From contig PLLC01000088.1 in the NCBI GenBank assembly GCA_003141195.1, forward strand, positions 84,780-121,440: a DNA stretch of 36,661 nt, written 5' to 3'. The first letter of the stretch is position 1; each line of letters begins with the position of its first letter. A program made the translations under genes and the position numbers. Below the pieces are notes generated by a model. The model saw only the letters and a list, made by a program, of their open reading frames with translations, had not been told where the DNA came from and made no database searches. Shown here piece by piece: positions 1,629-32,824 of this stretch. Source of the stretch: Syntrophaceae bacterium. Its GTDB lineage: Bacteria > Desulfobacterota > Syntrophia > Syntrophales > UBA5619.

Positions 1629-1637
1629 GACTACCCC

Positions 1638-1823
1638 ATGAAATTCAGTGAACTTGTCAAATTATTAGAACAGAATGGCTTCAGGATTATAAAGGAAAAG
1701 GGCTCTATCCGTTATTATGGAAAGCTTGGCTGGAACAATCTTGTTCGGATAGATTATCACGGCTCCAAGGAAGTTCCCAAAGGCACATGCCATGCAATAA
1801 TAAAAGCTGCTGGGATTAAGTAA
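1638..1823 (+). CDS. hicA: HicA-family toxin, variant lacking the usual His
   Basis: A 61-residue double-stranded-RNA-binding-fold protein: MKFSELVKLLEQNGF, then KEKGSIRYYGK, then YHGSKEVPKGTCHAIIKAAGIK. HicA mRNA interferases usually have GSH in the central strand; here the codons read GSI, so the catalytic His is not at the expected place. This may mark a natural subfamily or an inactive toxin. It is followed 22 bases later by hicB on the same strand. Its 3' end is the source of the remnant copies at 1090-1134 and 5518-5562. Confidence 0.85.
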   Translation: MKFSELVKLLEQNGFRIIKEKGSIRYYGKLGWNNLVRIDYHGSKEVPKGTCHAIIKAAGIK

Positions 1824-1845
1824 TAAAGGACGGAGGGGATATAAA

Positions 1846-2091
1846 ATGATAGATCTAGAATATTCTTTGATTATCGAGGCAACAAGGGAACCCGATTTCT
1901 TTGGATTCCATTCGCCTGATTTATCAGGCTTTTCTGGCGTTGGGCATTCCATTGAAGATTGTGTTTACAAAGCGAAATGGGGAATGATCGAACATGTCAA
2001 TTTACTAATAGAGCAGGGTTTGCCTGTTCCTTCAAGAAATCAGAATCCTAATATTACTATTCATAATGAGGCGACTCCAATAGCTGCTTGA
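1846..2091 (+). CDS. hicB: HicB-family antitoxin
   Basis: An 81-residue protein with the HicB RNase H-like fold pattern: EYSLIIEATREPDFFGFHSPDLSGFSG, then SIEDCVYKAKWGMIEHVNLLIEQGLPVP. It would bind the HicA made from the gene just upstream. There is no clear C-terminal DNA-binding domain (it ends ITIHNEATPIAA), so repression may be weak or rely on another factor. The ribosome site GGAGGGG lies about nine bases before the ATG. Confidence 0.85.
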   Translation: MIDLEYSLIIEATREPDFFGFHSPDLSGFSGVGHSIEDCVYKAKWGMIEHVNLLIEQGLPVPSRNQNPNITIHNEATPIAA

Positions 2092-2129
2092 AAATTGTTC
2101 ATACGTCGAAGCCCGTTCATCCTGAGCCT

Positions 2130-2156
2130 GTGTAATAATCTGGGGACATGACCTGC
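2130..2156 (+). repeat. Single-arm GGGGACATGACC repeat
   Basis: TAATAATCTGGGGACATGAC is the left arm of the palindrome found complete at 4488-4544. It lies between hicAB and phd/vapC, the same position that complete palindromes take between later TA modules. Confidence 0.7.
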
Positions 2157-2193
2157 AGAAAATCTTAAATACAGGTAGACATGTGGATGGTAA

Positions 2194-2205
2194 AAGTGTA
2201 CACTT
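2194..2205. promoter_or_regulatory. Candidate Phd/YefM operator palindrome
   Basis: AAGTGTACACTT is a perfect 12-bp palindrome, 33 bases upstream of the Phd-like ATG. TGTACA hexamers are the known YefM operator core, so autorepression by the antitoxin is a reasonable inference. Confidence 0.55.
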
Positions 2206-2238
2206 CAAAGCAAAGATCAATCATTAAGGAGTGAAATC

Positions 2239-2472
2239 ATGGAAGTAAACGTCAAAGAAGCAAGGACAAAAATCAGTTCCCTTCTGGATAGAACTGAGAG
2301 GGGAGAAGATGTCGTGATTATTCGGCGGGGTAAAAGGGTTGCCAGACTCGTTGCCGTCGGCGATGCGTGCAAGCGGCTTCCCGACTTGCGCAGGTTCCGG
2401 GATTCGATTTCGGTGAAGGGAGAGAGCCTGAGCGCAGCGGTCATCCAAGGGCGGGAAGAGGAACGCTATTGA
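2239..2472 (+). CDS. Phd/YefM-family antitoxin (VapB role)
   Basis: A 77-residue protein: MEVNVKEARTKISSLLDRTERGEDVVIIRRGKRVARLV is the Phd/YefM DNA-binding N-terminal domain. The C-terminus (LRRFRDSISVKGESLSAAVIQGREEER) is the part that wraps the toxin. An AAGGAG site lies eight bases before the ATG. Its stop overlaps the PIN toxin start as TGATG, so the two are coupled. It probably binds the TGTACA palindrome at 2194-2205 to repress the operon. Confidence 0.88.
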   Translation: MEVNVKEARTKISSLLDRTERGEDVVIIRRGKRVARLVAVGDACKRLPDLRRFRDSISVKGESLSAAVIQGREEERY

Positions 2473-2894
2473 TGTATTACATCGACACGAGCGTCCTGGT
2501 CGCCTATTATTGTCCAGAGACCTTGAGCGGACAAGTTCAATCCTTCCTGGGTGAGCAGTTCAAGCCTGCCGTTAGCGATTTGACAGATGTGGAGTTATTT
2601 TCCGCAGTCGCGAGGAAAGTGCGGATGGGAGACCTCAGCCCATCGGACGGGAACCGTATCTTATCGAAATTCTTGTCCCACCTGGATGGCGGACTGTTTA
2701 CGATCATCTCCCTCGAATCCCAACACTGGCGGATTGCCCGTGGCTGGATCGGCCTTTTCAGCACTTCACTGAGAACGCTCGATGCCCTTCACCTGGCCAT
2801 TGCATCTGCCGGCGATTTTACACTGGTTACATCAGACCAGCACCTGCTCCAAGCGGCAGATACATTGGCCGTAAAGGCGCACCGAATAGCATAG
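2472..2894 (+). CDS. vapC: VapC-type PIN-domain ribonuclease toxin
   Basis: A 140-residue PIN protein. MYYIDTSVLVAYY carries the first Asp, SDLTDVELFSAVARK the Glu, LRTLDALHLAIA the second Asp, and LVTSDQHLLQAA the last, so all four acidic residues are present. The start at 2472 is fixed by TGATG overlap with the antitoxin; a longer in-frame start at 2367 would overlap the antitoxin by 105 bases. It is expected to cut tRNA or rRNA when free. The length is normal for VapC. Confidence 0.9.
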   Translation: MYYIDTSVLVAYYCPETLSGQVQSFLGEQFKPAVSDLTDVELFSAVARKVRMGDLSPSDGNRILSKFLSHLDGGLFTIISLESQHWRIARGWIGLFSTSLRTLDALHLAIASAGDFTLVTSDQHLLQAADTLAVKAHRIA

Positions 2895-2973
2895 GGCGAC
2901 CGTATAAGTGACATCATTAATAATAGGTATGATGTCCCCGAATTAAGTGCAGATCCCCAATGACGATTATTCG

Positions 2974-3052
2974 AAAAAAGCTACAAAATTTGTAGATTGA
3001 GCGGCAAATTTTGGATATGGGGGCTGGGGTAATCTGGGGACATGACCTGATT
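2974..3052 (+). repeat. Direct repeat R2, copy 1
   Basis: AAAAAAGCTACAAAATTTGT and what follows, through GGATATGGGGGCTGGGGTAATC, recurs at 5568-5646 with only a few differences. It contains CTACAAA-A-TTTGTAG, a small palindrome, and runs straight into the GGGGACATGACC palindrome. A TGTCCCCGAATTAAG motif precedes it at 2931-2947. Confidence 0.8.
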
Positions 3053-3085
3053 TCGAAGAAATCGGGATTGTGTCCCCAGATTATT
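3030..3085. repeat. GGGGACA palindrome E1
   Basis: AATCTGGGGACATGACCTGATTTC pairs with GAAATCGGGATTGTGTCCCCAGATT across a short loop; a few mismatches. It lies between phd/vapC and hicBA. It is followed at 3130-3150 by TGGATGTCCCCGAATTAAG, 12 bases before the hicB start. Confidence 0.85.
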
Positions 3086-3161
3086 AAGGAAGTATGGCAA
3101 ATAACTGCGAGCACATCGCAAATGCAATCATGGATGTCCCCGAATTAAGTGAGGTGTGATA

Positions 3162-3359
3162 ATGGAAACAAAATTAAAAATGATTTACTGGAAGGGTGAA
3201 AAATTCTGGGTGGGAAAGCTTATAGAATATCCTGACATAATGACCCAGGGAGAGACTCTTGAAGAACTTGAGGAGAACATGAAAGACGCCTACATTCTGA
3301 TGACAATGGACGATGTACCGACAGAGCATGAGGTTAAAGAACTTATCTTTGCTCTATGA
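3162..3359 (+). CDS. hicB: HicB-like antitoxin
   Basis: A 65-residue protein, METKLKMIYWKGEKFWVGKLIEYPDIMTQGETLEELEENMKDA, with the strand-strand-helix pattern of short HicB proteins (UPF0150 type). It has no C-terminal DNA-binding domain. GAGG at 3151-3154 sits seven bases before the ATG at 3162, which is preferred over a GTG at 3156. Its stop overlaps hicA as ATGA. The TGTCCCCGAATTAAG repeat ends just before the ribosome site, so this module begins directly after the repeat. Confidence 0.82.
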   Translation: METKLKMIYWKGEKFWVGKLIEYPDIMTQGETLEELEENMKDAYILMTMDDVPTEHEVKELIFAL

Positions 3360-3529
3360 AAAGAAAAGACCTCATCAAAATAATCACTTCTGGCGGCTGT
3401 GTTCTCCTGAGACACGGTCATCGACACGATCTTTACGGCAATCCGAAAACGGGTAAAAATCAACCTGTGCCAAGGCATAATGAAATAGACGAAATCCTTG
3501 CAAAGCATATTATAAGGGAATTGGAATAG
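3356..3529 (+). CDS. hicA: HicA-family mRNA interferase toxin
   Basis: A 57-residue protein starting MKRKDLIKIITSGGCVLLRHGHRHDLYGNPKTG and ending PVPRHNEIDEILAKHIIRELE. The HRHDLY segment carries the His at the HicA active-site position, and the PRHNEI motif is typical. It starts in the last codons of hicB (ATGA overlap). The gene order is antitoxin first, the reverse of the hicAB pair at 1638. It looks complete. Confidence 0.85.
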   Translation: MKRKDLIKIITSGGCVLLRHGHRHDLYGNPKTGKNQPVPRHNEIDEILAKHIIRELE

Positions 3530-3576
3530 TATCAAATCATTTCAGCCGACCGCCGCTGACGATAACTGAACATTTA

Positions 3577-3672
3577 GTCCTCGGGTTTGCGCCGTCACAG
3601 GTCAGAAAAGCGATTCCTGGGACACTACTGAGTCACATCCTGAAAAACGGAATTGAAATTGCTCATTGACCG
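3577..3672 (+). repeat. Composite repeat R1, copy C, with 5' extension
   Basis: TCCTCGGGTTTGCGCCGTCACAGGTCAG at the left end recurs near 5417-5445, and GGGACACTACTGAGTCACAT to TTGACCG (3619-3672) is module R1. It is followed by ATTGACCGCCGGATCGAATA, also seen after copy D, then by palindrome E2. It lies between hicBA and brnTA. Confidence 0.85.
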
Positions 3673-3689
3673 TATTGACCGCCGGATCG

Positions 3690-3747
3690 AATAATCTGGG
3701 GACATGACCTGATTTCGAAGAAATCGGGATCGTGTCCCCATATTATT
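3690..3747. repeat. GGGGACA palindrome E2
   Basis: AATAATCTGGGGACATGACC with its partner GTGTCCCCATATTATT; the inner arms are CTGATTTC and GAAATCGGGAT. It is followed at 3756-3780 by AATAGGCATTATGTCCCCGA, then by another motif, GGCAGGCAAGACCTGTCCCC, at 3791-3810. The latter shares CAGGTCTTGCCT (reverse strand) with the sequence just before the transposase remnant at 10794. Confidence 0.88.
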
Positions 3748-3831
3748 CTGCGGAAATAGGCATTATGTCCCCGAATTAAGCTCATAAAATGGCAGGCAAG
3801 ACCTGTCCCCAGTTTCTGTGCTTTTTCCCTC

Positions 3832-3860
3832 TTGACAGAATGGTTCATACGGGTTAGAAT
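3832..3860 (+). promoter_or_regulatory. Promoter TTGACA-N17-TAGAAT for brnTA
   Basis: TTGACA at 3832-3837 and TAGAAT at 3855-3860, 17 bases apart, 28 bases before the brnT ATG. It is close to the sigma-70 consensus. It lies directly downstream of the repeat block, so this TA module carries its own promoter. Confidence 0.7.
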
Positions 3861-3888
3861 GTAATACATCATCACCGGTGGAGAACAG

Positions 3889-4161
3889 ATGAAAATCGAA
3901 AATATCACCTGGGACGAGGACACGGCCAATCATATCGCACGGCATGCTGTTTCGCCCGAAGAGGTCGAAGAGGTTTTATTCAATGATTCTGACTCGCCGC
4001 GGATCATGCGTGGAAAGGAAAATCGTTATTTGGCCTACGGGAAGACGAACGCCGGGCGCTTCCTACTCGTGGTGCTGATCATTGCCAACCGAAAAACGAG
4101 AATCATTACGGCCAGGGACATGACCGACAGGGAAAAGAAATTTTATCGGAGAAAAAAGTGA
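3889..4161 (+). CDS. brnT: BrnT-family toxin
   Basis: A 90-residue RelE-fold ribonuclease. MKIENITWDEDTANHIARHAVSPEEVEEVLF and then RYLAYGKTNAGRFLLVVLI and RIITARDMTDREKKFYRR follow the BrnT pattern closely. Known BrnT proteins degrade RNA and are neutralised by BrnA. It overlaps the next gene by four bases (ATGA) and has a strong promoter at 3832-3860. The length is normal. Confidence 0.9.
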   Translation: MKIENITWDEDTANHIARHAVSPEEVEEVLFNDSDSPRIMRGKENRYLAYGKTNAGRFLLVVLIIANRKTRIITARDMTDREKKFYRRKK

Positions 4162-4454
4162 TGAAGACTCCCAAATTTGAAAATCTTAAAGACGAACGGG
4201 AATTCTGGGATAAGCAAGATTCGACGAATTATCTGGATGATTTCGAGGAAGCAGGAAATATCGTTTTCGCCCGCGCCAGGAAAGATGTTCTCTCTCTACG
4301 GTTGGAACCTAAGATTTCCAATAAGTTAAAAGAGGTTGCCCATCGGGAAGGACTGCCGCCGACTACGTTTGCCCGGATGCTCATCATTAAAGGTCTCAGA
4401 GAGAAATTGGGCGCCCGGGACACTGCTGAGTCACATCCTGAAAAACGGAATTGA
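4158..4454 (+). CDS. brnA: BrnA-type antitoxin with repeat-encoded C-terminus
   Basis: A 98-residue protein. The N-terminus (FENLKDEREFWDKQDSTNYLDDFE) and the ribbon-helix-helix part (LSLRLEPKISNKLKEVAHREGLPPTTFARMLI) match BrnA/CopG antitoxins, which bind BrnT and repress the operon as dimers. From about 4417 the codons lie in repeat module R1, so the last residues (RDTAESHPEKRN) and the stop come from the repeat. The native C-terminus has probably been replaced. The folded domain before it looks intact. Confidence 0.85.
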   Translation: MMKTPKFENLKDEREFWDKQDSTNYLDDFEEAGNIVFARARKDVLSLRLEPKISNKLKEVAHREGLPPTTFARMLIIKGLREKLGARDTAESHPEKRN

Positions 4455-4470
4455 AATTGCTCATTGACCG
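4417..4470 (+). repeat. Repeat module R1, copy D
   Basis: GGGACACTGCTGAGTCACAT onward matches the other R1 copies except for one base near the start. It overlaps the 3' end of brnA by 38 bases and is followed by GCGCCGGATCGAATAATC, then palindrome E3. Confidence 0.88.
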
Positions 4471-4487
4471 CATTGGGCGCCGGATCG

Positions 4488-4544
4488 AATAATCTGGGGA
4501 CATGACCTGATTTCGAAGAAATCAGGTCATGTCCCCAGATTATT
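4488..4544. repeat. Perfect 57-bp GGGGACA palindrome E3
   Basis: Two perfect 27-base arms (AATAATCTGGGGACATGACC then TGATTTC, and the exact complement) flank the loop GAA. This is the most regular copy in the window. AATAGGGATTATGTCCCCGA follows at 4571-4590. It lies between brnTA and the MNT/HEPN module. Confidence 0.95.
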
Positions 4545-4644
4545 CAGAAGGCACAGGGAAAATGGGGACTAATAGGGATTATGTCCCCGAATTAATCCGT
4601 TAAATTCATCTGCCCATTGCAGCGGTTTAAGAGAGGTTATCGTT

Positions 4645-4974
4645 ATGGCTCTGAAATTAAAAGATAATGAGGCGCTTGCCCTGAAAAGTCTGAAAGATTC
4701 CCTTTTACAGAAGTATGATGTTCTCGATTTCCGTGTCTTTGGTTCAAAAATCAAGGGTCTGGATAGGCCGGATTCAGATATCGATGTCATGATTGAGCTG
4801 GCAGAATACAACTCGACCATCGCTTCCGAGATTGATGATATCATCTTTGAGATCAACCTTGCCCATGATGCTTTTATCTCTGCCGTCATCTTCGGGAAAA
4901 AAGAAGTCGAGGAAGGCCCTTTGTCGGAGTCCCCAATTTACAAAGTTTGCAAGCGAGAGGGAGTGCCTCTATGA
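4645..4974 (+). CDS. MNT-type nucleotidyltransferase antitoxin
   Basis: A 109-residue minimal nucleotidyltransferase. FRVFGSKIKGLDRPDSDIDVMIEL holds the GS...G motif and the DxD metal-binding pair. In MNT/HEPN systems this enzyme modifies and inactivates the HEPN ribonuclease by AMP transfer. GAGAGG lies about ten bases before the ATG. It overlaps the HEPN gene as ATGA. A second MNT/HEPN pair is on the other strand at 10903-11624. Confidence 0.85.
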   Translation: MALKLKDNEALALKSLKDSLLQKYDVLDFRVFGSKIKGLDRPDSDIDVMIELAEYNSTIASEIDDIIFEINLAHDAFISAVIFGKKEVEEGPLSESPIYKVCKREGVPL

Positions 4975-5387
4975 CCGATAGGGAAAAGCAAAAAACCCTA
5001 TCCCTGTACCGGCTCACCCAAGCGGAGGAAAGCCTGGACGAAGCGCGCTATCTATTGGTCGGGGGGAAAAGCCTGCGATCCGTCATCAACCGGGTCTATT
5101 ACGGCATGTTTTACTCGATCCTGGGGCTGTTGATATATGAGCCTTATACCTCGTCCAAACATAGCGGCGTTCTCTCATATTTCAACAAACGTTTTATCGG
5201 CGAGAAAATTTTTCCGGAGCAAATGGGGCGCACAGTCCATAAGGCTTTTGACCTGCGCCAAAGGGGAGATTATCGGGAATATCAAGAGATTGAACCGGAC
5301 CAGGTCGGGCCGCTTTTAGAACAGGCAGATGCCTTCGTTAGTACCGTTCGTCAATATCTGGAAAAGCATATCTTCAGTTTTAAATAG
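4971..5387 (+). CDS. HEPN-domain toxin (UPF0332-like)
   Basis: A 138-residue helical protein. AEESLDEARYLLVGG, SVINRVYYGMFYSILGLL, SKHSGVLSYFNKRFI and FDLRQRGDYREY match the UPF0332/HEPN pattern. The classical HEPN RNase motif R-X4-6-H is not visible, so the activity may differ from HepT-type RNases. The start at 4971 is set by ATGA overlap with the MNT gene. It is the last gene of the plus-strand TA array; repeat copy B follows. Confidence 0.82.
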   Translation: MTDREKQKTLSLYRLTQAEESLDEARYLLVGGKSLRSVINRVYYGMFYSILGLLIYEPYTSSKHSGVLSYFNKRFIGEKIFPEQMGRTVHKAFDLRQRGDYREYQEIEPDQVGPLLEQADAFVSTVRQYLEKHIFSFK

Positions 5388-5463
5388 GGATAGGGAAAAT
5401 GGTGATTAATATCCGATAGATGTCCTCTTGTTTGCGCCGTCACAGGTCAGGAACGCGATTCCT

Positions 5464-5562
5464 GGGACACTACTGAGTCACATCCTGAAAAACGGAATTG
5501 AAATTGCTCATTGACCGCTCCAAGGAAATTCCCAAAGGCACATGCCATGCAATAATAAAAGC
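5464..5562 (+). repeat. 99-bp direct repeat, copy B
   Basis: Reads identical to copy A at 1036-1134: R1 followed by the hicA 3' fragment. The extension GTTTGCGCCGTCACAGGTCAG upstream (from about 5427) is shared with the repeat at 3577. Together copies A and B bound 4.4 kb of TA genes as direct repeats. Confidence 0.9.
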
Positions 5563-5567
5563 TGCCA

Positions 5568-5680
5568 AAAAAAGCTACAAGATTTGTAGATTGAGCGACA
5601 AATTTTGGATATGGGGACTGGGGTAATCTGGGGACATGACCCGAATTCGTTAGAAATCGGGATCGTGTCCCCACATTATT
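5568..5680. repeat. Repeat R2 copy 2 plus palindrome E4
   Basis: Positions 5568-5646 repeat 2974-3052 with few changes. They run into TAATCTGGGGACATGACCCG...GGGATCGTGTCCCCACATTA, an imperfect palindrome ending near 5680. This is the right edge of the TA array. Confidence 0.85.
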
Positions 5681-11899: not shown

Positions 11900-13162
11900 A
11901 TGTTTAAGAATATCTATCAGGGAAAGCGGGTCCTGGTTACGGGCCATACAGGCTTCAAGGGTTCCTGGCTTTGTATCTGGTTGAAGGAGCTGGGGGCAGA
12001 GGTCGTGGGTTACTCTCTGGATCCGCCCAGCGAACCGAACAATTTCAGCGTCTGCCGGCTTTCGGAACATATCGATCATCAACATGGGGATGTCCGGGAT
12101 CATGACCGCCTCATTTCAATATTCAGTCATTATAAACCGGAGATGGTCTTTCATCTGGCCGCCCAGGCGCTTGTCCGGTCTTCCTATGATGATCCGAAGG
12201 GAACCTTCGACACGAACGCCGGAGGAACGGTCAATGTGCTGGAGGCGGTGCGGCGCACACCAGACGTCCGAGTCGTGGTCAATGTTACGAGCGACAAGTG
12301 CTATGAAAACCGGGAATGGGTCTGGGGCTACCATGAAAACGATCCCCTCGGCGGCCACGATCCTTACAGCGCCTCGAAAGGGTGCGCCGAACTGATCTTT
12401 GCTGCCTATCTCCGCTCCTTTTTCTCTCAAAAGAAATATGGGGACATAATACCTATTTCTGTCCTTGGTAAATCTGGGGACACGATTTCAATTTCTGGGC
12501 AATCCGGGGACACGATCCCAATTTCTGGAGAAATTGGGTCATGTCCCCAGATTGCCGGGCCATGTCCCCAGATTGCCAGCAATTCAGCCAGTGGCGGCAG
12601 GCAGATCGGGGCTGGTTCCTGTCGGGCAGGAAACGCCATAGGTGGCGGCGACTGGGGCCGGGATCGCCTGATTCCCGACTGCGTCCGGGCGTTGAGCAGC
12701 GGCCGAGCCATTGCCATCCGCAATCCCCGGTCCGTCCGTCCCTGGCAGCATGTTCTTGAACTCCTGAGCGGTTACCTCTATCTGGGGGCGCGCTTGTGGG
12801 AAGAGCCGGAAGAGTTCAGCGGCGCCTGGAATTTCGGTCCGGGCAATACGGCTGATTTGACGGTTGCCGAGGTGGTAACTCGTTTCATTCAGGCATGGGG
12901 CGCCGGGGAATGGCAGGATCTGTCCGAACCAGGGGCGGTCCATGAAGCCGCCGTTCTGCGGCTCTGCTGCGACAAGGCGGCAGCCCGCCTGGGCTGGCGA
13001 AATGCCCTTTCGATGGAGCAGGCTATTGACCTGACGGCGGAATGGTATAAAATGTTCTACAGTGGCGCTTCGCAGGAAGTTCTCTATCACCTTTGCACAA
13101 AACAAATTGCGAAATACGTAAAGACGGCAAGGGAAAGGACTTTAAGGTGGACTGAAAAGTAA
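11900..13162 (+). CDS. rfbG: CDP-glucose 4,6-dehydratase with an in-frame repeat insertion
   Basis: A 420-residue SDR-family enzyme converting CDP-glucose to CDP-4-keto-6-deoxyglucose. VLVTGHTGFKGSWLCIWL is the NAD-binding motif, DPYSASKGCAEL carries the catalytic YxxxK, and RAGNAIGGGDWGRDRLIPD is the substrate region. RfbG proteins are usually about 360 residues. The excess lies between RSFF and RAGN: about 66 residues where about 15 are usual. That stretch is encoded by GGGGACA/TGTCCCC repeats (12439-12575), read in frame with no stop. All catalytic motifs survive, so it may fold with a large surface loop or may be dead; sequence cannot decide. The start at 11900 is preferred over an in-frame ATG at 11822, which would read through the hairpin repeat. 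Confidence 0.9.
   Translation: MFKNIYQGKRVLVTGHTGFKGSWLCIWLKELGAEVVGYSLDPPSEPNNFSVCRLSEHIDHQHGDVRDHDRLISIFSHYKPEMVFHLAAQALVRSSYDDPKGTFDTNAGGTVNVLEAVRRTPDVRVVVNVTSDKCYENREWVWGYHENDPLGGHDPYSASKGCAELIFAAYLRSFFSQKKYGDIIPISVLGKSGDTISISGQSGDTIPISGEIGSCPQIAGPCPQIASNSASGGRQIGAGSCRAGNAIGGGDWGRDRLIPDCVRALSSGRAIAIRNPRSVRPWQHVLELLSGYLYLGARLWEEPEEFSGAWNFGPGNTADLTVAEVVTRFIQAWGAGEWQDLSEPGAVHEAAVLRLCCDKAAARLGWRNALSMEQAIDLTAEWYKMFYSGASQEVLYHLCTKQIAKYVKTARERTLRWTEK
12439..12575. repeat. GGGGACA repeat cluster inside rfbG
   Basis: Three forward motifs (12440 GGGGACAT, 12476 GGGGACACGATTTC, 12506 GGGGACACGATCCC) are followed by two inverted ones (TGTCCCCAGATTGCC near 12542 and 12563). GACCCAATTTCT and AGAAATTGGGTC-like arms give a hairpin at about 12513-12541. 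The forward part encodes repeated GDTIxIS peptides and the inverted part repeated CPQIA peptides. Confidence 0.9.
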
Positions 13163-22028: not shown

Positions 22029-22961
22029 ATGAAGACAATCAGTATCATGACCCCCTGCTACAACGAAGAAGAAAACATCCGCGAACTGGTGGATCGTATC
22101 CGCAATGTCATGGAAGAATTGCCGGAATATGCGTATGAACATATTCTGATCGACAATGCCTCCAAAGACAACACTGTCGCCGTTCTTCGCGAAATTTCCT
22201 CCGAAGACAAACACATCAAAGTAATCGTAAACACGCGCAATTTCGGACATATCCGTTCGGGTTATTATGCCCTACTGCAGGCAAGAGGAGACGCGGTAAT
22301 TGGCATGGCGTCGGACCTGCAGGACCCGCCGGAAATGATTCCGCAATTCGTAAAGAAATGGGAGGAAGGATTTAAAATCGTGCTGGGGGTCAAAGAAAGC
22401 AGCGCGGAATCGCCTCTCTTTTTTCATGTTCGCAAAGCCTATTATAAAATGGTTAGCAAACTATCCGAAGTGGAATTGATGCAAAACACAACCGGCTTTG
22501 GACTGTATGACAAGAAGGTGATCGAAATTCTCCGCCACATCGACGATCCCTATCCCTATTTCCGCGGCCTCATCTGCGACATCGGTTTCGAAATCGCCCC
22601 CATTCCGTTCCACCAGCCCACGCGCAAACGCGGGTTCACAAAAAACAATTTTTACACGCTCTACGACCTGGCCATGCTGGGTATTACCAATCATTCTAAG
22701 GTACCCCTCAGGTTGGCGACGATGACGGGTTTTTCAGTGGCGCTTATGAGTCTTGCTGTTGCTCTTGCTTATTTTATTTATAAATTGATTTTCTGGGATA
22801 ACTTTCAGGTTGGGATGGCGCCTCTTGTCATCGGCCTCTTTTTCTTTTCATCCGTTCAGTTGTTTTTCATCGGTATCATCGGCGAATATATCGGCGCCAT
22901 TCATACCCAGGTGCTGAAGCGGCCATTGGTCATCGAAAAGGAACGAATCAATTTCGATTAA
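22029..22961 (+). CDS. gtrB: Polyprenyl-phosphate glycosyltransferase (GtrB/DPM1-like GT2)
   Basis: A 310-residue enzyme moving a sugar from NDP-sugar to undecaprenyl phosphate on the inner membrane face. ISIMTPCYNEEENI starts the GT-A fold, ILIDNASKDNT and GMASDLQDPPEMI hold the metal-binding acids, and two C-terminal hydrophobic helices (SVALMSLAVALAYFIYKLIF, PLVIGLFFFSSVQLFFIGII) anchor it. The start at 22029 has GGAG upstream. Its 3' end is repeated at 24480-24633 and 26269-26345. The gtrA partner is 3.4 kb downstream. Confidence 0.9.
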   Translation: MKTISIMTPCYNEEENIRELVDRIRNVMEELPEYAYEHILIDNASKDNTVAVLREISSEDKHIKVIVNTRNFGHIRSGYYALLQARGDAVIGMASDLQDPPEMIPQFVKKWEEGFKIVLGVKESSAESPLFFHVRKAYYKMVSKLSEVELMQNTTGFGLYDKKVIEILRHIDDPYPYFRGLICDIGFEIAPIPFHQPTRKRGFTKNNFYTLYDLAMLGITNHSKVPLRLATMTGFSVALMSLAVALAYFIYKLIFWDNFQVGMAPLVIGLFFFSSVQLFFIGIIGEYIGAIHTQVLKRPLVIEKERINFD

Positions 22962-23043
22962 AAGCCGGGAGTCAATTTTGCAACAGATACTTGAACACTT
23001 GAGTGAAATCATCCTTGAGGCAGGCCGCACGGAGAAAAAATGA
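22962..23043 (+). pseudogene. gtrA and wzm 5' fragments fused after gtrB
   Basis: AAAAGCCGGGAGTC and TTTTGCAACAGATACTTGAACA match the leader and first codons of the real gtrA (26344-26386). At 22999 this switches to LSEIILEAGRTEK, the start of an ABC-2 exporter permease also found at 28361. Its stop overlaps the start of the next gene (ATGA), so recombination has joined three genes here. Confidence 0.75.
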
Positions 23044-24404
23044 ACGAAGAAACCATCCTGAATTTCATAAAAAAAGGCGAATCCGAAACGGTCGAGTTCA
23101 AATCCGCCTTCGATCAGGCGGCGATTGAAACGCTTGCCGCTTTCGCCAATACAAAGGGCGGGTATGTTTTTGTCGGTGTTGCAGATTCTGGCAAGATTGT
23201 CGGCGTCCAGCTTGGCAACGAGACGATCCCGCAATGGCTAAATCAGATAAAAACCAACACGTTTCCCACTCTTATACCGGATGTTGCGACCGCTGCCATT
23301 GATCATAAAGACATCGTGATCTTTATGATCGACGAGTTTCCGATCAAGCCCGTAAGCTGCCGAGGGAAATATCTGAAAAGAGTCAGGAATGCAAACCATC
23401 AGATTCCCATTCACGAGATATCCGATCTTCATTTGCGAAGTTATCAGACAAGCTGGGATTTCTATTCCGACACCCGCCATGGACTGGAGGACATCTCTTT
23501 AGCGAAAGTGAGCAAATTCATAGAAATATCAAATCGGATTCGCCCCAATCCCATTCTAGATGATCCCCTCACGGTGCTCAAAAAATTCGAGTTAATCAAG
23601 GAGACATCAATTACGAATGCATGCTATCTACTTTTTGCAACGGAGGATGTCCTTATATCCACGATAGAGATAGGGCGTTTTGATAGCGACACCCTCATTC
23701 AGGACAGCCTAACCATACGATCGGACCTGTTTGGTGAAGTGGATGCGGCGCTCTCGTTTATTCGAAAACATCTGAATAGATCTTACATCATTACCGGAGA
23801 TAAACAGCGGGAGGAACGCTGGGACTATCCCCTTACGGCGCTTCGCGAAATTGTGGTCAACATGATTGTCCACCGCGACTACATGAGTTCAAGCGATTCC
23901 ATGATCAGAATATTTGACGACCGGATAGAATTCTTCAATCCCGGTCGCCTGATGGCCGGGCTGTCGATAGAGCAGTTGGTGCGCGGCAACTACGTCTCCG
24001 CCATCCGCAACAAACAGATCGCTACGCTTTTTAAAGAGGCCGGGATCATTGAGAAATACGGTTCCGGCATTAAACGGGTATTGGAATCTATAAGGACATA
24101 CGGGCTAATGGATCCGTCGTTTGAGGAGATCCAGGATGGGTTTCGGGTAACCTTTTTCAAAACCACCCAGAAAACCACCCAGAAAACCACCCAGAAAACC
24201 ACCCAGAAAACCACCCAGAAAACCTCAACTAAGGACCAGATTCTCGATATCCTCCGAGGAAATCCAAAGCTTACCCGTGGTGAGATGGCGCAATTGTTGG
24301 GGAAGAGTCAAAATACCATCAAGGACAATCTGGCCGCGCTCAAATCTGAAAACCGGGTGGAACGCATGGGGAGCGACCGCGACGGTTATTGGAGAGTGAA
24401 GTGA
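23040..24404 (+). CDS. AlbA_2/Schlafen-type ATP-binding regulator
   Basis: A 454-residue protein. ESETVEFKSAFDQAAIETLAAFANTKGGYVFVGV (residues 12-45) is the AlbA_2 domain. ALREIVVNMIVHRDY with IRIFDDRIEFFNPGRL (about 275-320) is the HATPase_c_4 region. The C-terminus (DQILDILRGNPKLTRGEMAQLLGKSQNTIKDNL) is a winged helix. A KTTQ linker repeated five times joins the last two parts. Family members are often called RecG-like or transcriptional regulators, and some sit in defence islands. It is inserted between gtrB and a gtrB 3' copy. Confidence 0.85.
   Translation: MNEETILNFIKKGESETVEFKSAFDQAAIETLAAFANTKGGYVFVGVADSGKIVGVQLGNETIPQWLNQIKTNTFPTLIPDVATAAIDHKDIVIFMIDEFPIKPVSCRGKYLKRVRNANHQIPIHEISDLHLRSYQTSWDFYSDTRHGLEDISLAKVSKFIEISNRIRPNPILDDPLTVLKKFELIKETSITNACYLLFATEDVLISTIEIGRFDSDTLIQDSLTIRSDLFGEVDAALSFIRKHLNRSYIITGDKQREERWDYPLTALREIVVNMIVHRDYMSSSDSMIRIFDDRIEFFNPGRLMAGLSIEQLVRGNYVSAIRNKQIATLFKEAGIIEKYGSGIKRVLESIRTYGLMDPSFEEIQDGFRVTFFKTTQKTTQKTTQKTTQKTTQKTSTKDQILDILRGNPKLTRGEMAQLLGKSQNTIKDNLAALKSENRVERMGSDRDGYWRVK
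24159..24218 (+). repeat. 12-bp tandem repeat encoding KTTQ x5
   Basis: AAAACCACCCAG occurs five times without change, then degenerates to AAAACCTCAACT. Each unit is four codons, so copy-number change alters linker length without shifting frame. Confidence 0.95.
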
Positions 24405-24479
24405 TAAGAATGATGAATTCTCCCCTGATTACGTTCGCGATCCTTAATTGGTATTATGGATGTCCCCGGATTTCATGCA

Positions 24480-24633
24480 GGTAGGGATGGTGCCGCTGGT
24501 CATAGGTCTGTTTTTCTTTTCATCCGTTCAGCTTATCTTCATCGGTATCATCGGGGAATATATCGGCGCCATTCATACCCAGGTGCTGAAGCGGCCATTG
24601 GTCATCGAAAAGGAACGGATCAATTTCGACTGA
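24480..24633 (+). pseudogene. gtrB 3'-end copy 2
   Basis: Encodes VGMVPLVIGLFFFSSVQLIF to ...EKERINFD, matching the last 51 residues of GtrB (22809-22961). The first half differs at many third positions; the second half is nearly identical. Directly before it (24451-24474) is GGTATTATGGATGTCCCCGG, a copy of the GGGGACA-type repeat, so the break coincides with a repeat motif. Confidence 0.9.
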
Positions 24634-24688
24634 ATAGCAGGGTGGACCTTTAGAGACTGAGGATTGAACAAAGCGCAAGATTAACTAT

Positions 24689-24756: not shown

Positions 24757-26217
24757 GTGTCGAAGTTGCCGTGGGGCTTTTATGGAAGAAGGCGGGAGGT
24801 TGAGCAAATCCTTGAAATCCTTCGACGTGGGCGGTGGTTTTTCCTGAAGATATCGGGGCGAAGGCGGATCGGCAAGACAAGCCTGGTGCAAGAGGCACTG
24901 CGAGAAATCGGGAGAGAGCGGGCGGTCTATCTCCAGATCCCGGATTCCGACCCCGCCGGCGTTCTTTCGACAGTTCGCGACTTTTATGCCACCTTCGGCC
25001 TGGAAAACCGCACTCCCCGCGATCTCGGCGCGTTTGCCGCCAGCATCGCCGGTCTCGTCCGTGACGGATTTGTCGTCATCATCGATGAGTTCCAGTATTT
25101 TCACCGCCAGTCCCTGGCCGAGTTCACCTCTCATCTGCAATACGAGGTGGACCGTCTGGCAAGGGAGGCAGATCGGGTACCCGGCGGCCTCATCGTACTT
25201 GGCTCCATCCATACGGAGATGGCGGCGCTTCTGGAGGACAGGACGGCGCCTCTATTCAACCGCCTGACAGACCAGATGGAACTTCCCCATCTCGATATCG
25301 CGTCCATCCTCGAGATCCTGCAAATCCACGCCGATGATGCCCCGGAGAGGCTGCTTTTTCTCTGGAATCTTTTCGAGGGGGTCCCGAAGTTTTATCGGGA
25401 CTGCTACGAGCAGGACGTCTTGGACGCCGACCGCCGGGAACTGCTGAGGAAGATGTTTTTCACCAGTTCTTCGCCGCTCCGGATGGAAGCGGAAAGCTGG
25501 TTTCTCAGAGAGCTGCGCGGCCGCTATGATCTGATTCTGAAGTATGTTGCACGACATCCAGGATGTACGAACAGCGATCTCGACGCCCATGTGAAGTCCT
25601 CCCTGTCAGGAAACGGCAAGCAGGTGGCGGGCTATATAAAGGTCCTGCGCGAACGTTATGGGATGATTGAACGACTACAGCCTGTCTTCGCCAAACCGAC
25701 GGCACGCAACGGACGATTTTATCTCAAAGATAACTTCCTGCGGACCTGGCTTTCCGTCCTGGCCGTTCCCACTGCTTCGGTAAATTTCAGACCCTTGGAG
25801 CCCTTGATCGCTGAAGCGGATCAGCGGCTTGCCGAAGCGGAAGGTTACGGGTTTGAAAGGCTTATCCGGGAGCTCTACAAAGAACGCAGCCGTAAGGGAA
25901 TCGGTGATTTCGAGTTGACGTCGCAGATTCATGGATATTGGGACAAGGCGGGAACGGAAATCGACCTGGTCGCGCTCAATGATGAGGCGAGAATCGTACG
26001 TTTGGGGTCGTGCAAGAGGAATGCGGATCGCCTTGTAGGCGGACTGAAGCGGTTTGACGGCCATGTCGAACGGTTTCTTCGCCTGAGACCTGAACTCAGC
26101 AACTGGAAAGTAGAAAAATCGGCAATCGCACCTCGCCTTTCAACTGAGGCGCGGCGAGCCGCCGAGGAGGCCGGTTATATCGCTCAGGATTTAGTGGATC
26201 TGACCGTGGGGCTGTGA
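24757..26217 (+). CDS. AAA ATPase of the archaeal-ATPase/DUF234 type
   Basis: A 486-residue protein. FYGRRREVEQI leads to Walker A (KISGRRRIGKTSLVQ) and Walker B (GFVVIIDEFQYF). The C-terminal third (YGFERLIRELY, GTEIDLVALND, RLGSCKRNAD) resembles the PD-(D/E)XK-like DUF234 region. Biological role of the family is not established; it often lies in mobile or defence regions. The start is GTG at 24757 with GGAGG nearby. It is flanked by two gtrB 3' copies and appears to have its own promoter. Confidence 0.82.
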   Translation: MSKLPWGFYGRRREVEQILEILRRGRWFFLKISGRRRIGKTSLVQEALREIGRERAVYLQIPDSDPAGVLSTVRDFYATFGLENRTPRDLGAFAASIAGLVRDGFVVIIDEFQYFHRQSLAEFTSHLQYEVDRLAREADRVPGGLIVLGSIHTEMAALLEDRTAPLFNRLTDQMELPHLDIASILEILQIHADDAPERLLFLWNLFEGVPKFYRDCYEQDVLDADRRELLRKMFFTSSSPLRMEAESWFLRELRGRYDLILKYVARHPGCTNSDLDAHVKSSLSGNGKQVAGYIKVLRERYGMIERLQPVFAKPTARNGRFYLKDNFLRTWLSVLAVPTASVNFRPLEPLIAEADQRLAEAEGYGFERLIRELYKERSRKGIGDFELTSQIHGYWDKAGTEIDLVALNDEARIVRLGSCKRNADRLVGGLKRFDGHVERFLRLRPELSNWKVEKSAIAPRLSTEARRAAEEAGYIAQDLVDLTVGL

Positions 26218-26268
26218 TAACTAACGATTATTCTGAGATAATTGTCAAGGTTGAAATGGCTCATTGTA

Positions 26269-26345
26269 GAATATATCGGCGCCATTCATACCCAGGTGCT
26301 GAAGCGACCATTGGTCATCGAAAAGGAACGGATCAATTTCGATTA
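26269..26345 (+). pseudogene. gtrB 3'-end copy 3
   Basis: EYIGAIHTQVLKRPLVIEK then ERINFD and a TAA stop, nearly identical over 77 bases to the last part of gtrB. Here the homology continues into the original leader of gtrA, so this is probably the native gtrB-gtrA junction. Confidence 0.9.
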
Positions 26346-26362
26346 AAAGCCGGGAGTCCCTT

Positions 26363-26815
26363 TTGAAACGGATACTCGACCACTTATGGCTGAATCATCA
26401 GACGAAGGTCCGCTTTGTCCTGGTTGGCCTCTGGAACACGATTTTTGGTTATCTCGTCTTTGTTGGGCTCGACTATTTGTTTAATCTTTTTTTCTCACCG
26501 CGCTACGTTGCCTACATGTCGGCAGCGGTTTTAGCGAATATTATCGCCATCCTCAATGCTTACATATTTCACAAGTTTGTCACTTTTCGATCTCCCTTAC
26601 GGGGCCTCGCCATTATTCCGGAATTTGTGCGTTTTTTTTCCATGTATCTGTTCAGTTTTTTTCTTGGCCTCGTTCTTCTTCCCGTTTTTGTGGAAATATT
26701 CCATCTTGATCCCAAAATAGCCGGCGCATTGCTCATCCCGATCACGATGATCATCAGTTATCTCGGCCATTCCCGGTTTTCATTCAGGCAAGATAACGAG
26801 GCGCATCATTCATAA
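26363..26815 (+). CDS. gtrA: GtrA-like membrane protein
   Basis: A 150-residue protein with four membrane helices: VRFVLVGLWNTIFGYLVFVGL, YMSAAVLANIIAILNAYIFHKFVTF, FFSMYLFSFFLGLVLLPVFV and IAGALLIPITMIISYLGHSRFSF. This is the GtrA/DPMS-type family thought to flip or present polyprenyl-phosphate sugars. It starts with TTG at 26363, GGGAG upstream. It normally follows gtrB; here two ATPase genes separate them. Confidence 0.85.
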   Translation: MKRILDHLWLNHQTKVRFVLVGLWNTIFGYLVFVGLDYLFNLFFSPRYVAYMSAAVLANIIAILNAYIFHKFVTFRSPLRGLAIIPEFVRFFSMYLFSFFLGLVLLPVFVEIFHLDPKIAGALLIPITMIISYLGHSRFSFRQDNEAHHS

Positions 26816-27902: not shown

Positions 27903-28217
27903 ATGAATGCCATGCGCCCCATACATCCCGGCGAGGTGCTGAAGGAAGAGCTTGCCGAAATTAACATGTCCGCCAATGCCTTTGCCCAGGCACTACACGT
28001 GCCGGCCAACCGGATAACCGCTATCCTGAGCGGTACCCGTTCCATTACCGCTGATACCGCGCTACGGATTTCCTTTTTCTTCGGCACCACGCCGGAATTC
28101 TGGCTGAATCTTCAGACATCATATGACTTGAAGGTGGCCAGAGAATCTGTTGGTAAAAAGGTAAAACAGGAGGTCAGATCATTCATACCCACCATGCCGC
28201 GCCTGACACACGCATAA
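27903..28217 (+). CDS. higA: HigA-family HTH antitoxin without toxin
   Basis: A 104-residue protein: MRPIHPGEVLKEELAEINMSANAFAQALHVPANRITAILSGTRSITADTALRISFFFGTTPEFWLNLQTSYDL is a standard HigA/VapI helix-turn-helix. AAAGGAG precedes the ATG. No HigB lies upstream, so the toxin is missing. The last 24 residues (from VGKKVKQEVRSF) are encoded by a 73-bp repeat also at 32393-32465, so the C-terminus may be of foreign origin. Confidence 0.88.
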   Translation: MNAMRPIHPGEVLKEELAEINMSANAFAQALHVPANRITAILSGTRSITADTALRISFFFGTTPEFWLNLQTSYDLKVARESVGKKVKQEVRSFIPTMPRLTHA

Positions 28218-28218
28218 A
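28146..28218 (+). repeat. 73-bp repeat at the higA 3' end
   Basis: TCTGTTGGTAAAAAGGTA to CACACGCATAAA matches 32393-32465 with three differences. It covers the last codons and the stop of higA. Confidence 0.85.
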
Positions 28219-29268: not shown

Positions 29269-29790
29269 ATGATCGAAGAACTGCGAAGCAAGATCACGGG
29301 CGAGGAGTTTGATTATCCGGCCCTTTTGGACGGTCTGCGGGAATACGACCGCCCCCGTGACAAGATCACGTCCCTGCTGGGACAGGGGGCCGTCGTCCGG
29401 GTAAAGAAGGGCATTTACGTTTTTGGGGAGAGATACAAGCGGCGCCCCTTCTCCAGAGAGGTCCTGGCAAATATGATCTGCGGGCCTTCCTATATTTCCC
29501 TCGATTACGCCTTGCATTACTACGGCCTGATTCCGGAAAGAGTCGAAGCGGTGACGTCGGTTACCGTCAGCCGGGGCAGGCGCTTTTCCACCCCTGTCGG
29601 CCTTTTCATTTACCGCGCCGTTCCCATGAGAGCCTACCCGATCGGCATCGACCGGGTAGAACTCGATGGAGGGCGCTCCTTTCTCATCGCGATCCCGGAG
29701 AAAGCCCTGGCTGATAAGATCCAGGCTGACCGGGGAACGGCGGCTGCGCGCCTGCCGGGAGCTGGGGCTGCCGACGATTCCCGCCCGTGA
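29269..29790 (+). CDS. AbiEi-like type IV antitoxin, 3' end replaced
   Basis: A 173-residue protein. Residues 1-60 (EFDYPALLDGLREYDRPRDKITSLLGQGAVVRVKKGIYVFG) are the winged-helix N-terminus; FSREVLANMICGPSYISLDYALHYYGLIPE and IPEKALADKI are AbiEi core motifs. The last 19 residues lie in DNA whose other frame reads ParB (GERRLRACRELGLP), so the real C-terminus has been lost. No AbiEii toxin follows. Start at 29269 has AAGGA seven bases upstream. Confidence 0.75.
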   Translation: MIEELRSKITGEEFDYPALLDGLREYDRPRDKITSLLGQGAVVRVKKGIYVFGERYKRRPFSREVLANMICGPSYISLDYALHYYGLIPERVEAVTSVTVSRGRRFSTPVGLFIYRAVPMRAYPIGIDRVELDGGRSFLIAIPEKALADKIQADRGTAAARLPGAGAADDSRP

Positions 29791-29809
29791 ATTCACCGGA
29801 ATTCACCCG
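29732..29809 (+). pseudogene. ParB-family central fragment
   Basis: In the frame +1 to AbiEi, GERRLRACRELGLPTIPARE is the ParB nuclease-domain motif. Its first 25 bases repeat those at 30840-30864 with one mismatch. The sequence after ARE is not recognisably ParB. Confidence 0.72.
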
Positions 29810-29903
29810 AAGGATTCAGAAGGGCCTGGATCGACTCCTGGAGGTTCATGAGAGTCTGGTTGAAGGTCGTCGGGGCTCTGTTCTGCCTTCGCCTGCCGCA
29901 TCT

Positions 29904-30149
29904 TCACCGATTTGCCAAAAGTTCATCAATTTCTTGATCCGTGAAACCAAACTGACGAAAAATCCGGATAACGTAAGGCGGAGACAATTCACCTGCACCC
30001 GTATCGATGGGAGCTGTTCTTTTTCGACCCTCAACGATACGCAAGTATATATCGTGATCTCCCTTTCCATGCCTGAGAAAAGAACACCCACCGCCTGCCA
30101 GTATACGCAGCAGTTCCCTGGGCTTGAGGGATGGTACGTTTTTAGGCAT
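29904..30149 (-). CDS. hicA: HicA-family toxin
   Basis: An 81-residue protein: SLKPRELLRILAGGGCSFLRHGKGDHDIYLRIVEGRKRTAPIDTGAGELSPPYVIRIFRQFG. GDHDIY carries His at the HicA position. It overlaps hicB by eight bases on the minus strand. The C-terminal extension is longer than usual. Confidence 0.85.
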   Translation of the reverse strand: MPKNVPSLKPRELLRILAGGGCSFLRHGKGDHDIYLRIVEGRKRTAPIDTGAGELSPPYVIRIFRQFGFTDQEIDELLANR

Positions 30150-30408
30150 AGACCGCCCTGAGTTCGTATGTTTCTAATGTAGGTTCTCGCCCTTCTATGG
30201 ATAGAAATTCGTGCAATTCATTGATGGCAATGGGGGCCGTAAAAAGTGATGGATCGTCGGAGAAAGCCAACTCCAGAGATGCGATAGCCTCTCTCATTTT
30301 TATAAGCGCCTCCTCTTTTGTTGACCCCTGGCTGACAACACCATTTTCCAGGCACAACGCCACCCAGTAGTCACCGCTTCTTCTTAAAATAGTCGTGAGA
30401 AATGACAT
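30142..30408 (-). CDS. hicB: HicB-family antitoxin
   Basis: An 88-residue protein: FLTTILRRSGDYWVALCLENGVVSQGSTKEEALIKMREAIASLELA. AAGGAGG lies seven bases before the ATG. TATAAT is visible on the minus strand at 30441-30446. First gene of the pair; no DNA-binding domain. Confidence 0.85.
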   Translation of the reverse strand: MSFLTTILRRSGDYWVALCLENGVVSQGSTKEEALIKMREAIASLELAFSDDPSLFTAPIAINELHEFLSIEGREPTLETYELRAVYA

Positions 30409-30548
30409 CCTTCAACCTCCTTAATGACTGGTCAGCTATAATTATAAACTATCTCTTTTTTTCAGAGTTGTCCATGCTTAAGTTGACCCGGCGTACTTTC
30501 TCAACAACACCGCCAATCACCTTTCCCTCGCGGTAAGCTGCGGAAATC

Positions 30549-30606
30549 CGGGAAATCCGGGGACATAATACCAATTAAGGTGAATTCCATGAATTCCTGT
30601 CCCCAG
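30549..30606. repeat. GGGGACA motif pair before parB fragment
   Basis: CCGGGGACATAATACCAATT (30549) and CCTGTCCCCAGAATTC (30595) are inverted copies of the window-wide motif, with GGTGAATTCC and GGAATTCA-like sequence between. They sit exactly where the ParB reading frame becomes recognisable. Confidence 0.75.
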
Positions 30607-30611
30607 AATTC

Positions 30612-30887
30612 ACTTCGGTCAAGCAGAACGAACAGGCCGCCGGAAACGGCGGCGGAGACGCCGTCCGCGAGGAGTATCTGAATATTCCGCTCAGCGAGAT
30701 CGTGATCGACGCCCAGATCCGGAGCGAAATTGACGTGGAAGACGAATCATTCCAGTCCCTCAAGGCCTCCATCCGGGACTGGAACGTGATGGCGCCTATC
30801 ATCTTGATGCGGATGGAGAAGGGCTACCGGCTCATCGCCGGGGAGCGGCGGCTGCGCGCCTGCCCGCAGACTTTCCCTCATCCCTGA
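30612..30887 (+). pseudogene. ParB N-terminal fragment
   Basis: EEYLNIPLSEIVIDAQIRSE, then SFQSLKASIRDWNVMAPIIL and GYRLIAGERRLRAC is the ParB/Spo0J nuclease-like domain. There is no start codon upstream (repeat DNA instead), and after RLRAC the frame runs into the 3' end of the DUF4143 gene. The complementary piece is at 29732, so one or two parB copies have been broken up. Confidence 0.82.
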
Positions 30888-32266
30888 GTTAACAGCCGTT
30901 CCAATTGATGCACCAAATAAAAGGGGATATTAAGCAATCTGAAACCGCGCTCAACTTTATTCACTTTGGCCACCAGTTGATTCACGGACGGCTTGGCAGA
31001 ACTAATCTTGATGGCCTGGTCGGCTTGTTTTTTAACGACATACGAGTGTAACGACTTTATCGTGCCCCCTGAACCCGATTTGACCTCTATGGGATACACT
31101 CGATTTGCACAGGGAAAAAGGAAGTCAACCTCTGCTTGACCCTCTGACTTTGGAGGTTGCCAGTAGTACAATTCAGGCTGAATATAACCCTTTTTAGAAT
31201 AGAGCAATTGCTGACCCACAAACTGCTCCGCCAACACACCATGATTGGCCAATTCGAGAGGTGAGTTCATAACCATTTGAGCGGGCAGGCCTTGTGCTGC
31301 CAATAACAACCCGATATCGACAAACAAAAACTTGCTGATTCTTATTTTTGTTTCAGCACCCAATGGAATTCTGCCTGCATTGCTGTGAAGCACGCGATAG
31401 AACAAACGGGCCTCCAGAAAGCGCTCAATCGCTGAATTCAATTGCCGATTATCACCACTGGTCATGGCAGAAATCTCGTTGGCCTGTTTATGGGAAAATT
31501 GAAAACCCACCTGCCTTAAAATACCATTAAAAAAAGCATTGAGCCGAAGGGCGTTTTGAGTGCCGGCGTATTTGGCAAAATCATCCTTATAGGTTTGAAT
31601 CAACGCTGTCTGATGTTTCAGAATATCAGCATGATTAAAATGCCTATCAATGCCGAGCTGGATACACCCGGGCATTCCACCTGTGAGCGTGTAGCGTCGA
31701 ACGAGCGCCATCAGGTCGTCATGCACAGAGTCAGGCATCAGGTGCATGTTATTCACATGAAGCATCTCAATGGCTTGCAACGCTTTGGTCTCACCGATCG
31801 CAAAAAGAAACTCTTCAAATGTCAATGGTCCCATGAAGTAGGGTTCAATGCGGCCGACAGGGGTGGGAAGCTTGATATCATTGAGCACCTGATCGAGTAA
31901 GGAACCCGTTAAAATCACGGCCAGGCCAGGCATATCCTCCGAAAAATAACGTAAACACGGATACGCGGAAGGTGTCGCCTGTGCTTCATCAAGAAATAGA
32001 ATGATGTTACTGTCTCGGGTAATCTGCTCGCCGCTCATAAGAGAAAAGTTAAACAACAACTCATCCAGTTTGTAACGCTGAAACAGGGGTTCCAATTCGG
32101 TATGCCGCTCAAGATTGACTTCAATCACGTTGACAGAGAGCTCTTCCGCCGCAAGACGGACTGCCGTTGTTTTCCCCACCTGCCTTGCTCCACGGATGAC
32201 CAAAGGCTTGCGCTTGTTTTGTTGATACCAGGCCTTGATATCTTCTATCGCACGTCGATTAAACAC
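30878..32266 (-). CDS. DUF4143 AAA ATPase
   Basis: A 462-residue protein: KPLVIRGARQVGKTTAVRLAAEE (Walker A), NIILFLDEAQATP (Walker B), then GPLTFEEFLFAIGE. The C-terminal part GQAEVDFLFPCANRVYPIEVKSGSGG is the DUF4143 PD-(D/E)XK-like motif. Role unknown; the family is common on mobile DNA. Complete in length. Base composition is more AT-rich than in neighbours, suggesting separate acquisition. Confidence 0.88.
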   Translation of the reverse strand: MFNRRAIEDIKAWYQQNKRKPLVIRGARQVGKTTAVRLAAEELSVNVIEVNLERHTELEPLFQRYKLDELLFNFSLMSGEQITRDSNIILFLDEAQATPSAYPCLRYFSEDMPGLAVILTGSLLDQVLNDIKLPTPVGRIEPYFMGPLTFEEFLFAIGETKALQAIEMLHVNNMHLMPDSVHDDLMALVRRYTLTGGMPGCIQLGIDRHFNHADILKHQTALIQTYKDDFAKYAGTQNALRLNAFFNGILRQVGFQFSHKQANEISAMTSGDNRQLNSAIERFLEARLFYRVLHSNAGRIPLGAETKIRISKFLFVDIGLLLAAQGLPAQMVMNSPLELANHGVLAEQFVGQQLLYSKKGYIQPELYYWQPPKSEGQAEVDFLFPCANRVYPIEVKSGSGGTIKSLHSYVVKKQADQAIKISSAKPSVNQLVAKVNKVERGFRLLNIPFYLVHQLERLLTQG

Positions 32267-32392
32267 CGCATCTCCTCCCCGTCACAATTCATCTAAAAAC
32301 ATATTACGAATTAAAGTGGCACATATTATGTCAAAACATGAATTAAAGTCAATGATTTTAAATCGCGATGTTCGACAATAGGGAAATCGGGA

Positions 32393-32465
32393 TCTGTTGG
32401 TAAAAAGGTAGGACAGGAGGTCAGACCATTCATACCCACCATGCCGCGCCTGACACACGCATAAA
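32393..32465 (+). repeat. 73-bp repeat, second copy
   Basis: Matches 28146-28218 at all but three positions. Here there is no higA gene before it, so it is a stranded 3' fragment or a copy of an independent repeat. Confidence 0.85.
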
Positions 32466-32551
32466 ACCGGGGTCAAGGCTTACCAAACCGTGATCGCCGT
32501 ACCATGACCTTGCTGACCATGGATCTCAGTTCCGGGAAAAGAGGGTGATCG

Positions 32552-32824
32552 TTAATAAGCATCCCCTCTTGGCAAAATGGCAATTATTTCAACGATTCTC
32601 TTGTCTCGTAGCGGCCGATAAATAATCCGCCAATCGCCGGTTCTATAACGAAACAATCCTTTGAGTGATCCGGTTAGCGGTCTTATATTTGTCCCGTACA
32701 GGGGATTGTCTTCCAGAACTGCAAAGCAATGATCAAACTGTTCCTGCAGCTCGCGGGTCACATGATCGTAATTCTTTTCAGCCGGTTTGGTCAGGAAGAT
32801 TTCCCAGATTTCTTGTCTCGCCAT
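32552..32824 (-). CDS. RelE/ParE-family toxin
   Basis: A 90-residue protein: WEIFLTKPAEKNYDHVTRELQEQFDHCFAVLEDNPLYGTNIRPLTGSLKGLFRYRTGDWRIIYRPLRDKRIVEIIAILPRGDAY. The GLFRYRTGDWRIIY strand-turn is diagnostic. Overlaps the antitoxin by 34 bases. Whether it acts as a RelE RNase or ParE gyrase poison cannot be read. Confidence 0.88.
   Translation of the reverse strand: MARQEIWEIFLTKPAEKNYDHVTRELQEQFDHCFAVLEDNPLYGTNIRPLTGSLKGLFRYRTGDWRIIYRPLRDKRIVEIIAILPRGDAY

Follow-up and report, generated by a model that had tools for sequence, protein, structure and literature searches.

How did a ParB gene come to lie in two pieces on the same strand, with its downstream part first? The locus is in a 36,661-nucleotide stretch of a Syntrophaceae genome (contig PLLC01000088.1; the whole stretch is termed the window), and the original prediction attributed it to tandem duplication or circular integration followed by loss of the ends. 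The explanation we favor, at somewhat better than even probability, is that a toxin-antitoxin/defence cluster here retains the remains of an orphan-ParB pseudogene that was duplicated and then trimmed by a deletion in each copy. The gene is termed ParB1.

The two ParB1 pieces

The N-terminal piece (positions 30616–30864, + strand) displays ParB homology from about position 30616, has no start codon, and ends inside the motif GERRLRAC. Its Pfam match to ParB_N (E-value = 7.4e-9; 36 bits, above the 26.3 cut-off) covers profile positions 15–65 of 95, i.e. a partial fold. The second piece (29738–29787, + strand; about 17 codons, ERRLRACRELGLPTIPA) starts at position 29738–29742 and shows 58-bp matches of 81%–84% identity to the ParB genes of two relatives, G007 and G001. 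By itself it gave no family match in a profile search, and in such a search an HTH match was absent from both the N-terminal piece (91 aa) and the second piece (40 aa).

Both pieces are shorter than first proposed. The second piece had been given as 29732–29809; ParB sequence extends to 29787, and the remainder belongs to a GAATTC-rich scar (29788–29813). The N-terminal piece had been given as 30612–30887; its ParB sequence is confined to 30616–30864 and is followed by a 12-nt filler of unassigned sequence (30865–30876), and from 30877 by a unit carrying a DUF4143 gene.

Judged from their predicted content, both pieces are incapable of acting as a ParB, and a functional product is not expected because the pieces are without a start codon and without the DNA-binding and dimer domains. 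The ParA Walker motif KGGxGK is absent from the window, and is present at the chromosomal ParB locus used as a positive control. No further ParB1 copy was found in the same genome.

A contiguous relative of ParB1

In one locus outside the window (L044, CAIVSG010000005.1) both ParB1 pieces are joined without a break. Window positions 30616–30862 correspond to L044 positions 3643–3889 (94% identity over 247 bp), and positions 29730–29852, the second piece with its flank, correspond to 3865–3987 (98% over 123 bp). The two matches overlap at a repeat that is present only once in L044, and within the overlap both window pieces carry C where L044 has T. The proposed split of one ParB gene into two same-strand pieces in swapped order is thus confirmed. 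Two unrelated ParB families as the sources of the pieces had been named as a possible objection; since L044 carries both pieces contiguously, this objection fails. The alignment shows that both pieces derive from one ParB lineage.

The L044 ParB1 has a start codon and is situated just 3′ of two open reading frames that resemble istAB (IS21-type) by eye. Beyond PTIPARE, both L044 and the window pass via GAATTCACCGGAATTCACC into the inverted C-terminal end of a ParB from another family (ParB2, TFNQTLMNLQESIQALLN; window positions 29814–29867, − strand), and the GAATTC-rich scar, common to both, marks the boundary. The ParB2 tail has 83% identity over 18 aa (E-value = 1.4e-4) to a ParB of G005 (contig C107), and on the DNA level a 55-bp stretch is 84%–85% identical to G005 and G010, on the strand opposite to ParB1. 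Because the inverted ParB2 tail is already joined in L044, ParB1 was broken before the swap.

An intact version of this ParB was sought in relatives, with partial success: L044 supplies a contiguous copy, but one that is itself broken, and the intact homologues, both in G007, are distant. Their open frames run to 331 and 326 codons; identity where they align is 47% and 44%, and their continuation is quite unlike the window's second piece. The ParB relative in G001 is likewise cut off (168 aa) and has a PIN-type gene (by eye) nearby.

A ParB1 search of public genome contigs yielded 79 loci, only L044 being close (88% aa identity); the next by E-value show 48%–51%. Among 155 genomes of the class, the window's own genome, G001 and G007 alone pass an E-value of 1e-10. 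Plasmid records gave ParB1 matches in only six, all under 60%; no close relative was confirmed in viral contigs (peptide scan and two exact DNA patterns) and none was found in phages (tblastn).

L044, the sole close relative found, is a short contig, ending at position 3988, from a metagenome-assembled genome labelled Chlorobiaceae. A repeat of about 110 bp at L044 positions 1096–1219 is present at eight places in the window's genome among the matches listed (70%–89% identity). The Chlorobiaceae label is doubtful because of this recurrence, and L044 may come from a relative and have been mis-binned.

The repeat and the AbiEi junction

A 25-bp repeat with one mismatch had been reported to bound the pieces. 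The repeat is real, a direct repeat of 27 bp with one mismatch at positions 29730–29756 and 30838–30864 (both + strand), but it is composite. When the 4-kb region was randomised 500 times under a first-order Markov model, no version contained a comparable pair, against one observed in the actual sequence. The right copy is ParB throughout; the left copy up to position 29741 also matches AbiEi, and the remainder is ParB. The single mismatch is an A in the left copy, which is the AbiEi base, and the left copy therefore begins as AbiEi sequence. A left end of AbiEi origin means that the repeat does not mark a clean boundary of a duplication. The doubled part comprises only about 16–19 bp, the right half of the repeat; GGCTGCGCGCCTGCC occurs in both ParB1 pieces on the same strand.

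The fusion of one ParB piece to AbiEi, also part of the original prediction, is supported. The AbiEi-type antitoxin gene (29269–29741, + strand; PADLOC AbiEi, E-value = 2.1e-51) is without its 3′ end and is truncated at 29741/29742: nt identity is 93% to G001 (contig C7) up to 29741, and 78% to G009 (contig C40) up to 29742. The intact AbiEi genes of these two relatives read CCGGGGAACGGC(C/G)ATTCG at the junction, diverging after CCGGGGAACGGC; both continue as ADRGTAIRTQAEM..., with ADRGTAIRTQ... in the product. The junction reads CCGGGGAACGGCC and CCGGGGAACGGCG in the relatives and CCGGGGAGCGGCGG in the ParB copy. These alignments place the AbiEi–ParB join inside a stretch of about 12 nt in which the two genes are similar by chance (CCGGGGA-A/G-CGGC).

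Downstream of AbiEi, G009 has an AbiEii gene (E-value = 4.5e-32); none is seen in the open reading frame list of the window. A 361-bp probe from G001 for the lost AbiEi 3′ part, run without a positive control of its own, gave no match in the genome.

Genes between and beside the pieces

A hicBA pair had been placed between the ParB1 pieces. A gene pair is present there, but both profile scores are below cut-off: the hicA-like toxin gene (29904–30149, − strand, 81 aa) matches Pfam HicA_toxin with E-value = 9e-5 and 22.9 bits (cut-off 27), and the hicB-like antitoxin gene (30142–30408, − strand, 88 aa), assigned by its position and its overlap with hicA, matches DUF7387 with E-value = 2e-5 and 25.3 bits (cut-off 27.9). 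Directly 5′ of the N-terminal piece is a dispersed repeat (30542–30613) that recurs in relatives; at least nine matches are spread over 8 of the 21 family genomes, including one at window positions 24442–24474.

To the right, the N-terminal piece had been thought to run into a DUF4143 gene. A DUF4143 ATPase unit does adjoin it (30877–32361, − strand; gene 30878–32266; Pfam DUF4143, E-value = 1.9e-22, and AAA_14), but the 12-nt filler separates the end of ParB homology from position 30877. The unit has 91.6% identity over 1485 bp to one in G016 (contig C33), with partial matches in G005 and G003, and the protein matches the PADLOC candidate defence family PDC-S01 (E-value = 9.6e-137). In relatives the unit has the same end points with different flanks, and all alignments end at 30877, just beyond the stop codon. 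Any claim of transposon-like ends is weakened because homology of nearby genes in relatives also ends at gene ends, i.e. that of a higA-like gene (G005, G154) and a ParE-like gene (G014). Insertion of the unit into ParB was considered and rejected, as the other flank, beyond 32361, is not ParB. One copy in G005 (L125, contig C431) is without its middle, the equivalents of window positions 30877–31139 and 32296–32364 being joined.

The spacers close by are pieced together from fragments of other genes. The start of a permease coding sequence lies reversed at 28352–28227 (83% of 42 aa to G005), and a 53-bp fragment of an HTH-type gene (32502–32554) corresponds to sequence inside long open frames of G039 and G085. 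A higA-like gene (27903–28214; HTH_3, E-value = 4.5e-7; named by eye) supplies the 3′ end that forms a 74-bp direct repeat of 96% identity (28145–28218 and 32392–32465, both + strand). It brackets a 4.2-kb block with the ParB1 pieces, the second copy lying to the right of the DUF4143 unit. A search for the empty site of this block, i.e. its joined flanks, gave no continuous match in 155 genomes.

Elsewhere in the window the 3′ end of a gtrB-like gene (by eye) is present in three copies of about 88%–91% identity (22806–23000, 24478–24660 and 26261–26385), which bracket an AlbA_2/Schlafen gene (23040–24404) and an ATPase gene (24757–26217; PADLOC PDC-S27), with gtrA at 26363. Each defence-like gene seems to have arrived with a copy of the end of its target gene. 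Short repeats of about 50–115 bp, up to 100% identical and on both strands, are found between small toxin-antitoxin-like genes (1036–5680, 12498–12573).

Origin of the arrangement

ParB1 material has been duplicated, as both pieces contain the right half of the repeat, and plain excision with reinsertion at AbiEi therefore fails. A circle excised between AbiEi and the repeat and then reinserted was rejected for the related reason that the N-terminal piece does not stop short of this right half but spans it. Of the two routes originally proposed, duplication is needed, and circular integration is without positive evidence. In the history that we favor, the ancestor would have held a ParB1 already shortened and placed tail-to-tail with a ParB2 end. 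ParB1 would then have been present in two copies, or in one plus a partial copy, around the hicBA pair. The left copy would have lost its N-terminal part by a deletion that joined it to AbiEi at the short chance similarity, and the right copy everything beyond GERRLRAC on the joining of DNA with the DUF4143 unit. The tandem nature of the duplication, with hicBA enclosed by the copies, is our inference, as is the chronology. The tandem intermediate is seen in no relative; two full ParB1 copies were found neither in the window's own genome nor in the 155 class genomes, none of which holds a close ParB1.

What speaks against a history of deletions is that the two breaks lie no more than about 25 bp apart in ParB coordinates, a coincidence that, by rough inference, independent deletions would produce with a probability of the order of 5%. 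This closeness would be accounted for if a small circle (ParB1–ParB2 tail–hicBA–repeat) was opened in GERRLRAC and inserted between AbiEi and DUF4143, the 16–19 bp overlap stemming from a staggered cut or from replication; order, orientation, and the overlap of both ends in the same 27 bp would fit one such event. Such a circle is nevertheless unlikely. No integrase or transposase was recognised at 29269–32266 (open reading frame list, Pfam), no inverted ends or flanking target duplication are seen, and the 12-nt filler at the right junction also speaks against it. Entry by a single crossover at AbiEi predicts AbiEi 3′ DNA to the right of the N-terminal piece, where it is absent.

Two independent captures of ParB1-locus fragments, by illegitimate or homology-aided recombination of incoming DNA, are likewise improbable. 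Single fragments of permease, higA, HTH-protein and ParB2 genes in other spacers are in keeping with such captures, but two unrelated ones would hardly be expected on the same strand, 1.1 kb apart, with break points in the same 27 bp, and the C shared by both pieces in the overlap also argues against them. Least credible is an assembly chimera of distinct genomic or strain sequences joined at a short repeat, for which there is very little probability: the assembly is a draft of 108 contigs with a contamination estimate of 3.48%, and the junctions are common to no relative, but a 27-bp repeat is short in comparison with usual assembly word lengths, and AbiEi and the DUF4143 unit both occur in related genomes.

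Read as a duplicated pseudogene cut back by deletion, the locus is apparently ordinary genome debris and not a working system, and there is no new mechanism at ParB1. It shows how toxin-antitoxin/defence clusters accumulate in this lineage: whole units are retained, and the spacers take up scraps from adjacent genes, joined where short stretches are alike, scraps legible enough for some of the events to be rebuilt. A broader proposal, which we regard as quite doubtful, is that the orphan ParBs of this clade form a mobile cargo class of their own, which moves and decays in polysaccharide clusters alongside toxin-antitoxin units and single-gene defence units, with the GC-rich conserved GERRLRA codons as a recombination spot at which units are joined or lost.

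Relation to known systems

The short chance-similarity junction and the mixed-fragment spacers are like those of homology-facilitated illegitimate recombination and microhomology deletions; the difference is that the ParB1 locus is known from sequence alone, without donor DNA or experiment.

The window's genome has six ParB_N places, i.e. the chromosomal one, four others, and the ParB1 relic. Other ParB genes in this genome and the family show no ParA Walker motif within 4.4–10.6 kb at 21 of 22 loci, the exception being in G017 (contig C115). Many ParB genes that are scattered and have no ParA motif close by occur in G000, G005, G007, G018 and others (L130–L132, L164–L182); G018 has eight of these and one apparently chromosomal ParB gene, and several of the family's scattered ParBs are truncated. 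A survey of orphan ParBs (PMC12704722) describes them as frequent and widely distributed, some of them being enriched on mobile elements. The proteins treated there carry ParB_N/HTH_ParB without ParA; ParB1 resembles them in its ParB_N homology, and related ParB genes in this bacterial family mostly show no ParA motif close by, but it differs in consisting of broken pieces only, with no HTH and no start codon. The literature matches listed include no published orphan ParB relic in a toxin-antitoxin cluster.

The left flank can be compared with the AbiE type IV toxin-antitoxin system (AbiEi/AbiEii), an operon of which is found in G009. The window keeps the N-terminal part of AbiEi, but the gene has lost its 3′ end and AbiEii, and is fused to ParB debris.
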